Source: Carnobacterium iners (lineage in GTDB: Bacteria > Bacillota > Bacilli > Lactobacillales > Carnobacteriaceae). Taken from it: a stretch of DNA of 64,000 bases. The translations under genes and the position numbers were made by a program. Positions 14,120-19,184 of the stretch are shown here, one piece after another. The stretch lies in the NCBI RefSeq assembly GCF_900177385.1, contig NZ_FXBJ01000002.1, positions 810,001-874,000 of the forward strand, written 5' to 3'. The first letter of the stretch is position 1. Each line of letters opens with the position of its first letter. Below the pieces are notes generated by a model, which ran no database searches, was not told the DNA's origin, and was given only the letters and a program-made list of their open reading frames with translations.

Positions 14120-14504
14120 CCTTTCTTATTCAAATATAATTAAATTCGCATTGATTGTTCATTAGTTCATCTTATCACATACTTTTAAAAAGTCAATTTT
14201 TTTATAGTTATAAATTATGTGAGTTAAAAAAAATTATTTATGGAAATTGTTTAAACAAAAATAAATAAGTTAAATAAAAATAAAATAAAGTAATAAGATA
14301 ATATTTAAAAAGACTTAAATCTTTGATAATAATAGGGATTCTAGATTCTATCTAAAAATTTATATAGAAAAAAAGACTAATATATTTATTTTGGACACTT
14401 CTTTTAAACTGTATGTTGTGCTATCATACGAATGCAAGCACAACATGTAGTGTTCTCTACCTTTAGGTAGTTAACCATACAGATTAAAGAAAAGGAGTCT
14501 TTTA
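14120..14504. other. divergent intergenic region between the EIIC-like gene and nrdI
   Basis: AT-rich, with no coding frame. It carries promoters for both directions and the two NrdR boxes listed separately. Confidence 0.6.
14406..14453 (+). promoter_or_regulatory. pair of NrdR boxes upstream of the nrd operon
   Basis: Box 1 AAACTGTATGTTGTGC (14406-14421) and box 2 GCACAACATGTAGTGT (14438-14453) match the NrdR consensus acaCwAtATaTwGtgt at about 12 and 13 of 16 positions. They start 32 bp apart, about three helical turns, as is usual for NrdR operators. They lie 52-99 bp before nrdI. NrdR represses ribonucleotide reductase genes in response to nucleotide state. The core parts also form an inverted repeat (ATGTTGTGCT / AGCACAACAT). 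Confidence 0.8.
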
Positions 14505-14969
14505 ATGACAAAAAAGATAAGAATCATTTATATCAGCTTAAGTGGCAATACCAAATACTTTGTCGAAAATCTAAGCAACTACATAGAAACGACTAAAGGT
14601 TTAGTTGTAGAGTCATTAAATGTTAAAGATTTAAAAGGAGAGACGTTTTCAGTTGATGAACCTTTTGTTAGTATATTGCCAACATATTTAAACGGTGGAA
14701 ATGGGATCGACAATGGAGAAAAAGAAGTCTTAACAACTAGATTAGGAGACTTTATTGCTTCCAATCATAACTTTAAATTTTGTTATGGAATTGTTGGAAG
14801 CGGGAATAGAAATTTTAATAAACAATTTTGTTTAAGTGCTGAACAATACACAAAAAGATTTCATTTTCCGCTACTTGATGTATTTGAATTGCGAGGAACA
14901 CAATCAGATATTAAGAGAATTGCAAATGCGATTATTAATCGCCAAGAAGAATTTCTCAAATCATTTTAA
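14505..14969 (+). CDS. nrdI: flavodoxin-like NrdI
   Basis: 154 residues. FMN-binding loop YISLSGNTKYFV near the start, then LPTYLNGGNGIDN and YGIVGSGNRNFNKQFC, the glycine-rich flavin loops typical of NrdI. NrdI supplies oxidant to class Ib NrdF so that its Mn-tyrosyl radical can be assembled. First gene of the nrdI-nrdE-nrdF-nrdF operon, just downstream of two NrdR boxes. The ribosome site AAAGGAG is well placed. No nrdH is present. Confidence 0.92.
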   Translation: MTKKIRIIYISLSGNTKYFVENLSNYIETTKGLVVESLNVKDLKGETFSVDEPFVSILPTYLNGGNGIDNGEKEVLTTRLGDFIASNHNFKFCYGIVGSGNRNFNKQFCLSAEQYTKRFHFPLLDVFELRGTQSDIKRIANAIINRQEEFLKSF

Positions 14970-14987
14970 AAAGGAGTGAGTGTAACG

Positions 14988-17186
14988 TTGTTAAATCAAA
15001 AAAAACTTATCAAGAGTCCAGAAACATACTTTTATTTAAATAATCTGGTTAATATTCCTGTCAACGGAGAAATCCCTTTGCATAGAGACCAAGAGGCGTT
15101 AAAAGCTTATTTTGAAGAAGAAATTATTCCGAATACTTTACTATTTGACTCACTAGAAGAAAAGTTAACATTTATGATTGAAAACAATTATATTGATGTA
15201 GCCATTTTAAATCTTTATACGCAAGCTAAAAACAATGAATACGATAATGCATTTATTAAATCTTTATTTAAGAAAATATATGCAGCAAACTTTAAATTTA
15301 AAAGCTTTATGGGTGCTTATAAATTTTATTCGCAATATGCATTGAAAACAAATGACAATTTAAAGTACTTAGAGAGATTTGAAGACCGTGTTGCTTTCAA
15401 TGCTTTATATCTAGGTAATGGAGATAAACAATTAGCCATGCAGCTGGCTGAAGAACTTATTTCACAACGTTACCAGCCAGCTACACCTACTTTTCTAAAT
15501 GCAGGGAAGAAGAAGAGGGGAGAAATGATTTCTTGTTTCTTGATTGATATTGGTGATTCCATGCTTTCAATTGGACGAGGAGTAAACTCAGCTTTACAGC
15601 TTTCTAGAATTGGTGGTGGAGTTGGAGTGAATTTATCCAATATTCGCTCAGCTGGAGATCCGATTAAAGGGATATTAAATGCTTCTTCTGGAGTTCTACC
15701 AGTAATGAAATTATTAGAAGACTCCTTTAGTTACAGCAATCAACTTGGCCAACGAAATGGTGCGGGTGTCGTTTATTTAAATGTTTTCCACCCAGATATT
15801 TTAGGGTTTCTATCCACCAAGAAAGAAAACGCAGATGAAAAAATACGTGTTAAAACGCTCTCTTTAGGCTTAGTAGTCCCTGATAAATATTATGAATTAA
15901 TTAAAACAAATAAACCAATGTATCTATTTAGTCCTTATAGTGTTGAGAAAGAATATGGAGTTCCCTTTTCGTATGTAGATTTAACTGCTGAGTATGATAA
16001 TATGGTCGCCAATTCAGCTATTAAGAAAACTCAGGTTAATGCTAGAGAGTTAGAACAAGAGATTTCACGTTTGCAGCAAGAATCGGGTTATCCTTATATT
16101 TTAAATATTGATACAGCTAATAAGACAAATCCTGTTGATGGAAAAATTATTATGAGTAATTTGTGTTCGGAAATTCTCCAACCACAAGAACCTTCAAAGC
16201 TAAATAATGACCTATCTTATGAACAAACGGGTACGGATATTAGCTGCAACTTAGGCTCGAGCAATATAATGAATATGATGAAATCTCCCGATTTCGCTAA
16301 ATCAGTTAATCTGGCTGTTCGTGCTTTAACAACAGTCACAGATTTGAGTGATGTTCTAGAAGTACCAACGGTTAGCAAAGGAAATTCTTTTTATCATACA
16401 ATTGGATTAGGTGCTATGGGACTCCATACGGCTTTATCTTTATATGAGATTGAATACGGTTCAAAAGAATCATTTGAATTCACAGAGGCTTATTTCATAG
16501 CGTTGAATTACCATAGCTTAGTAGCAAGCAATGAAATTGCAAAAGAGCGTGAAGAAGTCTTTTTTAAATTCGAAAAATCTAATTACGCAGATGGATCATA
16601 TTTTGAGACTTACTTAAAAAGCGAATTTGTTATAAAGAATGAAAAAGTAAAAGAAATTTTTTCTGCTATCCAGTTGCCTACAGTTGCAGATTGGGAAAAC
16701 CTGAAAGATGCTGTCATAGAGTATGGTTTGTATCATCGTAACCGTTTAGCCGTTGCACCTAATGGTTCAATTTCGTATATAAATGAAACGAGTGCGTCTT
16801 TACATCCAATCACTCAGCTAATTGAAAATCGTCAAGAAAAAACTGTTGGTTCAATTTTTTATCCTGCACCTTTTTTATCAAATAAAACACTTAAATACTA
16901 TAACTCGGCATATGACTATGATCAACGTAAAATTATTGATGTTTATGCTGTTGCCCAAAAACATATCGACCAAGGAATGAGCTTGACGTTGTTTATGCGT
17001 TCAAAACTTCCTGAAGGGTTATATGAATGGAAAGCAGGAGCCTCGCCAAAACTAACTACCAGAGACTTGAACCGTCTAAGAAACTATGCTTGGACCAAAG
17101 GAATAAAGTCACTTTACTATATCAGGACGTATACTGAAGATGATGAATTTATAATGGCAAATACTTGTGAATCATGCATGATTTAA
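14988..17186 (+). CDS. nrdE: class Ib ribonucleotide reductase large subunit NrdE
   Basis: About 732 residues. Reduces ribonucleoside diphosphates to deoxy forms. Visible hallmarks: TYFYLNNLVNIPVNGEIPLH at the start, ATPTFLNAG, MISCFL with a redox Cys, IGGGVGVNLSNIRS, NLCSEILQP with the thiyl-radical Cys, CNLGSSN, and the C-terminal CESCMI pair that accepts electrons. AAGGAG ends 11 nt before TTG 14988, my chosen start; GTG 14976 would overlap the ribosome site. Lies 18 bp after nrdI and 13 bp before the first nrdF. Confidence 0.94.
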   Translation: MLNQKKLIKSPETYFYLNNLVNIPVNGEIPLHRDQEALKAYFEEEIIPNTLLFDSLEEKLTFMIENNYIDVAILNLYTQAKNNEYDNAFIKSLFKKIYAANFKFKSFMGAYKFYSQYALKTNDNLKYLERFEDRVAFNALYLGNGDKQLAMQLAEELISQRYQPATPTFLNAGKKKRGEMISCFLIDIGDSMLSIGRGVNSALQLSRIGGGVGVNLSNIRSAGDPIKGILNASSGVLPVMKLLEDSFSYSNQLGQRNGAGVVYLNVFHPDILGFLSTKKENADEKIRVKTLSLGLVVPDKYYELIKTNKPMYLFSPYSVEKEYGVPFSYVDLTAEYDNMVANSAIKKTQVNARELEQEISRLQQESGYPYILNIDTANKTNPVDGKIIMSNLCSEILQPQEPSKLNNDLSYEQTGTDISCNLGSSNIMNMMKSPDFAKSVNLAVRALTTVTDLSDVLEVPTVSKGNSFYHTIGLGAMGLHTALSLYEIEYGSKESFEFTEAYFIALNYHSLVASNEIAKEREEVFFKFEKSNYADGSYFETYLKSEFVIKNEKVKEIFSAIQLPTVADWENLKDAVIEYGLYHRNRLAVAPNGSISYINETSASLHPITQLIENRQEKTVGSIFYPAPFLSNKTLKYYNSAYDYDQRKIIDVYAVAQKHIDQGMSLTLFMRSKLPEGLYEWKAGASPKLTTRDLNRLRNYAWTKGIKSLYYIRTYTEDDEFIMANTCESCMI

Positions 17187-17199
17187 TAGGAGGGAAATA

Positions 17200-18162
17200 A
17201 TGTCTTATTTACACTACAAGGCGATTAACTGGAATGAGATCGAAGATAATTTAGATCATTTAACTTGGGAGAAATTAACCTCACTATTTTGGCTAGATAC
17301 AAGAATTCCTGTTTCGAATGATAAAAAAAATTGGGATAATCTATCAGAAACTGAAAAAGATGTATTTAAGAAAGCTTTAATTGGATTAGCTTCTATTGCT
17401 ACTTTCCAATCTGAAAAAGGTTATCTGGTAATAAAAGAAGGTCAGCATACTCAACAAGAAACTGCGATTTACAATAACATTCAATTTATTGAATCGGTTC
17501 ATGCGAAAGCTTATAACACTATTCTTATTGAATTTGAAAAGTCAAAAGAAGTAGAGATGATTTTAAATTGGGCTGAAGAGAATTCAGAAATTCAATACAA
17601 ATTGGATCGCATTCTTGAAATTTATAAAACAGGCAGTACACTTCAAAAGAGAGCAGCGAATTTAATTTTAGAAGGGATTTTAACATGTAGCGGTTCCTTT
17701 ACTCCGTTGATGTACTGGACACAGAGTGAGTTCTTAAATGTCTCTGAAATCATAAAATTAGTCCTTATGAATGAATCGTTGCATTGTTTTTACATCAGTC
17801 ACAAGTTTCGTTTAGGTTACTCTGAATTACCACAGCAAGAAAAAATAGAGTTAAGAGAGTGGGTTTTAGATTTAATTACCGACCTAGTAAACAATGAATT
17901 AAGTTATGTAGAAAAAATTTACAATGGAACTGGCTGGCTAGAAGAAGTTAAAGCCTTTGTTCAGCAGCAGGCTAATAAAGTTCTTACAAGTTTAGATTTT
18001 AACCCTCTTTACCCAGAAGTAGTGGAAAGTAATACCTATATCGATTCAATAAATAATATTCTAGAGAAAGTGACTCATCATGATGAAATCACTTATCAAT
18101 CTAGTGTGAGCTTAAAAGTAGATAGAGAGGATGTAATGAGTGAAGAAGATTATAACTTTTAA
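17200..18162 (+). CDS. NrdF-like small subunit lacking a metal ligand
   Basis: 320 residues, clearly NrdF-like along its whole length, with numbering equal to E. coli NrdF. Retained: Trp31, Glu98, His101, Tyr105 (IESVHAKAY), Glu158, Glu192 and His195, and the C-terminal EEDYNF tail. Changed: the metal ligand Asp67 is Ala (GLASIATFQ) and Asp191 of the radical-transfer chain is Asn (VLMNESLH). It is not the class Ie pattern, in which glutamates are replaced by Val/Pro/Lys or Gln/Ser/Lys. It may be a non-radical partner of the second NrdF, as yeast Rnr4 is for Rnr2, or a variant cofactor protein. Both ideas are inference. The reading frame is intact and has a good ribosome site. Confidence 0.88.
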   Translation: MSYLHYKAINWNEIEDNLDHLTWEKLTSLFWLDTRIPVSNDKKNWDNLSETEKDVFKKALIGLASIATFQSEKGYLVIKEGQHTQQETAIYNNIQFIESVHAKAYNTILIEFEKSKEVEMILNWAEENSEIQYKLDRILEIYKTGSTLQKRAANLILEGILTCSGSFTPLMYWTQSEFLNVSEIIKLVLMNESLHCFYISHKFRLGYSELPQQEKIELREWVLDLITDLVNNELSYVEKIYNGTGWLEEVKAFVQQQANKVLTSLDFNPLYPEVVESNTYIDSINNILEKVTHHDEITYQSSVSLKVDREDVMSEEDYNF

Positions 18163-18227
18163 GTGTAAATGAATTCAGACTAAAATAATGAAAAAGGTAG
18201 AGTTCTATTTTTAAGGAGGAAAATACC

Positions 18228-19184
18228 ATGAGCTTAAAACATAAAGTTATAAACTGGGATAAAATTGAAGACGAGTTAGATGATTATGTTTGGGATAAAG
18301 CAACTTCTCAATTCTGGTTAGATACTCGTGTACCTATTTCAAATGACCTTGCTGACTGGCGAGATCTTTCAGCTGTCGAACAAGAGATTATTAAAAAGGT
18401 CGTGGGAGGATTAGCCCTGTTGGACACTTTGCAGTCTGAAGAGGGGGTCAATGCTATGCGAGAGGATGTTCGTACTCATAAAGAAGCGGCTATTATGAAT
18501 AATTTTTTATTTATGGAAACCATTCATGCTAAAAGTTACGGAACAATCTTAACTTCTTTGAATAGCATTAAAAGTATTAATGAGATTTATGATTGGATGA
18601 ATAACGATGAACGGATGCAGTACAAAGTAAAAAGGATTAACGATATCTATAAAACAGGCAATGCTTTGCAAAAGAAGATTGCTAGCATATTCTTAGAAGG
18701 TGTTTTGTATTACAGTAATTTTTTTGCTCCTTTATGGTACCGTGGCAGCAATAAATTGTCTAACTTAGCTGAACTAATTAAGTTAATTATTCGTGATGAA
18801 TCAGTGCATGGCACTTATTTAGGGTACAAGTTTCGATTAACCTACAATGAATTACCTGAAGAAGATCAGGAAGAATTAAATAGTTGGATGTACGAATTGT
18901 TAGAAGATCTGATGGAAAATGAATTAGCTTATACTGAAGAAATATACAGCCCAATAGGCATGGTTGATGATGTTAAAACGTTCGTTCGATACAATGCCAA
19001 TAAATCTTTACAAAATATGGGTTTTCTAGCGTATTATGAAAATGCTGACTTGGATGATGTTAATCCTATTGTTATGAATGGGATTTCCATTGAAACAGCT
19101 AACCATGATTTCTTTTCACAAGTTGGAGCAGGATATCTGATGGGGAATGCTGAAACGATGCTGGATGAAGACTATGACTTTTAA
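18228..19184 (+). CDS. nrdF: class Ib ribonucleotide reductase radical subunit NrdF
   Basis: 318 residues with all expected residues: LLDTLQ (Asp66), METIHAKSY (Glu97, His100, radical Tyr104), FLEGVLYYS (Glu157), IIRDESVH (Asp190, Glu191, His194) and the C-terminal DEDYDF tail that docks on NrdE. It is therefore the functional Mn(III)2- or Fe2-tyrosyl-radical subunit. It follows the atypical NrdF by 65 bp with its own AAGGAGG ribosome site. The two NrdF proteins are related throughout, indicating tandem duplication or paired acquisition. Confidence 0.94.
   Translation: MSLKHKVINWDKIEDELDDYVWDKATSQFWLDTRVPISNDLADWRDLSAVEQEIIKKVVGGLALLDTLQSEEGVNAMREDVRTHKEAAIMNNFLFMETIHAKSYGTILTSLNSIKSINEIYDWMNNDERMQYKVKRINDIYKTGNALQKKIASIFLEGVLYYSNFFAPLWYRGSNKLSNLAELIKLIIRDESVHGTYLGYKFRLTYNELPEEDQEELNSWMYELLEDLMENELAYTEEIYSPIGMVDDVKTFVRYNANKSLQNMGFLAYYENADLDDVNPIVMNGISIETANHDFFSQVGAGYLMGNAETMLDEDYDF

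Follow-up and report, generated by a model that had tools for sequence, protein, structure and literature searches.

The class Ib ribonucleotide reductase (RNR) operon of Carnobacterium iners contains two adjacent nrdF genes, and their products probably form a heteromeric small subunit in which NrdF1 is the non-catalytic β′ partner of NrdF2 and works in a manner similar to yeast Rnr4. We infer the heterodimer, the inactivity of NrdF1 and its effect on NrdF2 from sequence comparisons. The pair appears to represent a conserved class Ib branch for which we found no description in the open-access literature. C. iners belongs to the Lactobacillales and has a genome of 2.57 Mb; its closest relatives found are Carnobacteriaceae (e.g., Desemzia incerta). 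The operon nrdI-nrdE-nrdF1-nrdF2 spans positions 14505-19184 of the window (the whole analysed stretch of 64,000 nucleotides), with two NrdR-box-like palindromes ahead of it:

14406..14421, + strand: NrdR-box-like palindrome 1, AAACTGTATGTTGTGC, 4 mismatches to ACACWATATATWGTGT
14438..14453, + strand: NrdR-box-like palindrome 2, GCACAACATGTAGTGT, 3 mismatches, 32 bp from box 1
14505..14969, + strand: nrdI, flavodoxin-like activator of class Ib NrdF (Pfam PF07972, E 3e-36)
14988..17186, + strand: nrdE, catalytic subunit (Pfam PF02867/PF08343/PF00317)
17200..18162, + strand: nrdF1, pseudo-R2, proposed β′ (Ala67, Asn191, without Tyr304, C-terminal EEDYNF kept; PF00268, E 3e-57)
18228..19184, + strand: nrdF2, putative radical-generating R2 (all ligands, Tyr105, Tyr304; Tyr at position 162, Gly at position 159)

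The start codon of nrdE is probably TTG at 14988 rather than the upstream GTG at 14976, judging from the comparison with the Desemzia locus (L011). A first, sequence-only reading of the window had placed both nrdF genes, with intact frames, in one NrdR-controlled operon. Indeed, the two frames are intact (320 amino acids for NrdF1, 318 for NrdF2), the C. iners genome possesses one copy of nrdR, and paired NrdR-like boxes with equal spacing (31-32 bp) are present in most orthologous operons. A third, fully canonical NrdF is encoded together with its own NrdE at 2.04 Mb of the C. iners chromosome, and the operon in the window is therefore an extra RNR. In its NrdE, the active-site Cys, the Tyr-Tyr radical-transfer dyad and the C-terminal CxxC are all intact; this NrdE thus needs a competent R2, which NrdF2 appears to be.

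In C. iners NrdF1, Asp67 is replaced by Ala and Asp191 by Asn, and Glu98, His101, Tyr105, Glu158, Glu192 and His195 are kept; phmmer alignments with the S. sanguinis and S. Typhimurium NrdFs, ungapped across the active site, agree with the earlier reading on these residues. The earlier reading did not mention that the tail tyrosine for radical transfer, Tyr304, is missing as well; the C-terminal EEDYNF is present. The last residues of the class Ib NrdF tail bind the large subunit (NrdE). Residues were counted in 34 distinct full-length NrdF1 proteins, with ten further Streptococcaceae sequences kept outside model building. Asp67 (replaced by A, S, Y, T or N), Asp191 (by G or N) and Tyr304 are lost in 34/34. 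Among the six metal ligands (Asp67, Glu98, His101, Glu158, Glu192, His195), 2-5 are retained: Glu98 is changed to Lys in 17/34 proteins, and Glu192 and His195 are each gone in 24/34; the radical tyrosine Tyr105 is gone in 15/34. The resulting ligand patterns (AEHEEH, AKHESF, SEHDNF, SENEEH and others) never correspond to VPK or QSK, and the ten held-out proteins show the identical rule of losses. As it recurs in all orthologues, the residue pattern of NrdF1 is no chance event. A recent single-strain mutation with frameshifted relatives, considered at the outset, is ruled out, since orthologues in five families share the losses and all 34 frames are intact.

NrdF1 therefore lacks the complete set of six ligands as well as the Tyr304 and Asp191 of a radical-generating class Ib R2, and with the curated NCBI models it reaches 274 bits, well under the class Ib cut-off of 355; the fold and the R1-binding C-terminus of a class Ib R2 are present. 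The sequence-only reading had considered a new cofactor type next to an Rnr2/Rnr4-like heterodimer. For NrdF1 to be an active R2 in this sense, a mononuclear metal or a modified tyrosine would have to tolerate Ala67. The Carnobacteriaceae proteins, which retain five of the six ligands and Tyr105, agree with such a cofactor, and partial metal binding is possible in C. iners NrdF1. However, as many as four of the six ligands are missing in its relatives (with Glu98 changed to Lys, and Glu192 and His195 among the losses). The radical tyrosine is frequently absent from them too, the tail tyrosine and Asp191 invariably so, and the partner NrdE keeps the standard radical path. We consider a new cofactor in NrdF1 highly improbable, and of the two earlier readings it is the heterodimer that agrees with the apparently obligate pairing, the catalytic losses, the R1-binding tail and the purifying selection described below.

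The AlphaFold single-chain model of NrdF1 (pLDDT 86.9) matches the NrdF structure 4n83 with a TM score of 0.95 by target length, and the model is a complete NrdF fold. Near-invariant sites of NrdF1 are concentrated (24/32; p 4e-13, for segments picked after seeing conservation) in residues 7-37, 82-103 and 312-319, i.e., in the N-terminal arm, the first part of the Glu98-bearing helix and the tail. This distribution differs from that in canonical NrdFs (Fisher 9e-8), whose invariant sites are spread over the metal site. Trp31 and the tail motif DYxF (Asp316-Tyr317-x-Phe319) are conserved in 34/34 proteins. Segments 7-37 and 82-103 presumably face the partner subunit, as in R2 dimers in general.

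Retention of the tail in all NrdF1 proteins while catalysis is lost could also mean that NrdF1 is a regulator or decoy, competing with NrdF2 or the chromosomal NrdF for NrdE via DYxF, or sequestering NrdI, with no catalytic heterodimer being formed. The hosts do have another NrdEF, the NrdF tail of which often does not end in Phe. However, the most constrained parts, the N-terminal arm and helix 82-103, would be needless for a tail decoy, and the strict 1:1 pairing with the Tyr162-containing NrdF2 clade suggests an NrdF2-specific role; we regard a decoy as unlikely. The sequence evidence for the heterodimer would equally fit a transient metallation chaperone of NrdF2 (or a protein delivering NrdI to it), with the active NrdF2 being a homodimer, and such a role was proposed for yeast Rnr4 (PMC3824934). 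This is nevertheless very unlikely for NrdF1, as the NrdE-binding tail in 34/34 proteins suggests that it stays in the holoenzyme.

The operon nrdI-nrdE-nrdF1-nrdF2 was found in five Lactobacillales families and on well over 150 plasmids of lactic acid bacteria. In genome samples that are all partial, the pair is present in 6/18 genomes of the C. iners family, 24/398 genomes of the family of G325 (plus two more-diverged cases and one decayed case), 4/105 of the family of G236, 1/76 of the family of G281 and 13/335 of the family of G019. PLSDB contains 165 plasmids with the Lactobacillus-type NrdF1 (at least 60% identity) and 166 with its NrdF2 (at least 90%), mostly from Lactiplantibacillus, Latilactobacillus and Pediococcus; a more distant form of the pair is found on Lactococcus and Enterococcus plasmids. 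Outside the Lactobacillales, no match above ~45% identity to NrdF2 was found in a 399-genome sample of the class. A viral origin was rejected, with only one IMG/VR contig carrying the pair, and this of the Lactobacillus plasmid type. Each NrdF1 locus examined has a ligand-complete NrdF2 of a single clade shortly downstream, and vice versa, which answers the earlier question of whether the deviant NrdF co-occurs with a canonical one; no intact NrdF2 of this clade without NrdF1 was found among these loci.

Several loci deviate in their layout. In genome G281 (L102), nrdI-nrdF1-nrdF2 has no adjoining nrdE, which may be encoded elsewhere. On plasmid p1 of E. faecium Dallas 155 (L138, 5500-7377), an IS30-family transposase interrupts an nrdF1 fragment that directly follows nrdI, and no nrdE is annotated there. 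In genome G757, nrdF1 and nrdF2 are both frame-broken (L216/L223), which fits loss as a unit. A thiol peroxidase gene (tpx) lies between nrdF1 and nrdF2 on plasmid pA of E. faecium WN-18 (L137, 4111-6942) and again in a Streptococcus-family genome (L334, 3843-6677; peroxidase recognised from sequence alone). On Enterococcus and Lactococcus plasmids, a divergent gene for a Crp/Fnr-family regulator precedes the operon, besides the NrdR boxes (L135, 2369-3040; L136, 2517-3185; L137, 315-986; L138, 4688-5353). The tpx insertions and Crp/Fnr-type regulators are circumstantial hints at the use of the operon under oxidative or oxygen stress.

The median dN/dS (107 pairs) is 0.11 for NrdF1 (maximum 0.26) and 0.038 for NrdF2. 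Selection maintains both genes, as had been supposed, and NrdF1 is under purifying selection, though it evolves faster than NrdF2. Phylogenetically, NrdF1 forms one clade (support 98/96) and NrdF2 another (100/100), the deep placement of NrdF1, with its long branches, being unsure. The two diverge in step (Mantel r 0.97), which is partly expected of any two linked genes. NrdF1 evolves several-fold faster than NrdF2, and IS elements or frameshifts disrupt a few of its copies on plasmids or in genomes, which might point to a decaying duplicate that is becoming a pseudogene. Relaxed selection and broken frames are, however, not what characterizes NrdF1: besides its low dN/dS and intact full-length frames, its tail and arm are invariant across five families, and the single genome with a decayed pair shows damage in both members, so that decay is extremely improbable.

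The sequence-only reading had stated that NrdF2 keeps everything. This is correct for the ligands, Tyr105 and Tyr304 (the six ligands, Tyr304 and Asp191 being present in 33/33 NrdF2 proteins), but not for positions 159 and 162. Gly159 and Tyr162 are found in 33/33 NrdF2, and the held-out Streptococcaceae NrdF2 all carry Tyr162 too; Tyr162 occurs in 0/117 other NrdFs, 115 of which have Phe. The remaining two have Leu and are class Ie VPK forms (Val98/Pro158/Lys192; L083 and L086, from Streptococcus-family genomes G218 and G319), which serve as an internal control of the site calls. We take NrdF position 162, four residues after the ligand Glu158 (Glu204 in E. coli NrdB), to be equivalent to E. 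coli Phe208; in the E. coli F208Y variant, the introduced tyrosine is hydroxylated to DOPA. In ordinary NrdFs, the pocket around the radical tyrosine is closed by Phe162, a phenylalanine able to flip (PMC6754363). At this very position, the laboratory mutant F208Y of E. coli R2 is reported to be inactive (PMC10645729), whereas tyrosine has been naturally fixed in all 33 NrdF2 proteins. As far as the sequences tell, a normally forbidden residue occurs in NrdF2 exactly where a pseudo-partner is present. Substitutions specific to NrdF2 are not strongly enriched in helix 82-112 if the overall conservation of NrdF2 is taken into account. A distinct RNR subclass, with Tyr162 belonging to the cofactor, either as an additional radical site or as a DOPA ligand arising by self-hydroxylation, and with NrdF1 as the structural partner making this chemistry productive, is a rather doubtful extension.

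As NrdF2 appears able and NrdF1 unable to supply the radical, and as NrdF1 has a full NrdF fold, we propose an NrdF2-NrdF1 heterodimer with a structural role for NrdF1. In it, NrdF2 (β) would bind the metals, be activated by NrdI, hold the radical and transfer it via Tyr304 to the NrdE Tyr-Tyr dyad. NrdF1 (β′) would be incapable of forming the normal dimetal-tyrosyl cofactor or of passing a radical via a tail tyrosine; it would pair with NrdF2 via its conserved N-terminal arm and helix and dock on NrdE by its own C-terminal tail. This pairing would fold, metallate or keep NrdF2 active, similar to what has been proposed for yeast Rnr4, and may let it tolerate Tyr162 beside the metal site.

Searches of the open-access literature revealed no account of an inactive R2 partner in bacteria. 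Eukaryotes are known to combine an R2 with an inactive partner in a heteromeric small subunit, and why yeast requires Rnr4 continues to be a matter of debate. With a compact operon that many sequenced food bacteria carry, the role of an inactive R2 could be tested cleanly. The pseudo-partner is perfectly linked to a tyrosine at the F208 position, and this poses a new, concrete question on R2 cofactor chemistry. Databases label NrdF1 and NrdF2 alike as "subunit beta", which has hidden the system: both nrdF genes are listed on an L. pentosus plasmid without comment on the pair (PMC6662855), and NrdE, NrdF and NrdI are listed for pGdh442, the pair not being noticed (PMC3019208).

Among known systems, class Ie R2 (VPK/QSK) resembles NrdF1 in being NrdF-like, in using NrdI and in having altered metal ligands. 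In class Ie, however, three glutamates are replaced, the tyrosine is kept as DOPA and the protein is active (PMC11846895), whereas the losses in NrdF1 include Asp67 and the radical path. With the wrong residues replaced, a class Ie identity of NrdF1 is ruled out, in line with the distinction drawn in the first reading; the two VPK-type NrdFs of the compared set are clearly separate from NrdF1. The class Ib NrdFs of E. coli and S. sanguinis (4n83) share fold and operon with the pair, and NrdF2 has all their ligands, Tyr105 and Tyr304, but differs from them in Tyr162 and in its apparently obligate pseudo-R2 partner. Apicomplexan R2_e2 is likewise a second, non-canonical R2 clade beside a canonical R2, and its radical tyrosine is variably lost (PMC3824934), but it belongs to a eukaryotic class Ia lineage and is found outside any operon with a dedicated R1. 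The closest parallel in function, with no homology implied, is yeast Rnr2/Rnr4 (class Ia), for which an active α2ββ′ form is described (PMC3824934): here as well, an R2 homologue without the metal-centre residues accompanies a catalytic R2, and NrdF1, having no competent metal site, is always found beside a competent R2. In contrast to the yeast proteins, NrdF1/NrdF2 are bacterial, belong to class Ib with NrdI, are encoded in tandem in an operon and have a separate evolutionary origin; NrdF1 lacks Asp67, Asp191 and Tyr304, and NrdF2 has Tyr at the F208 position.
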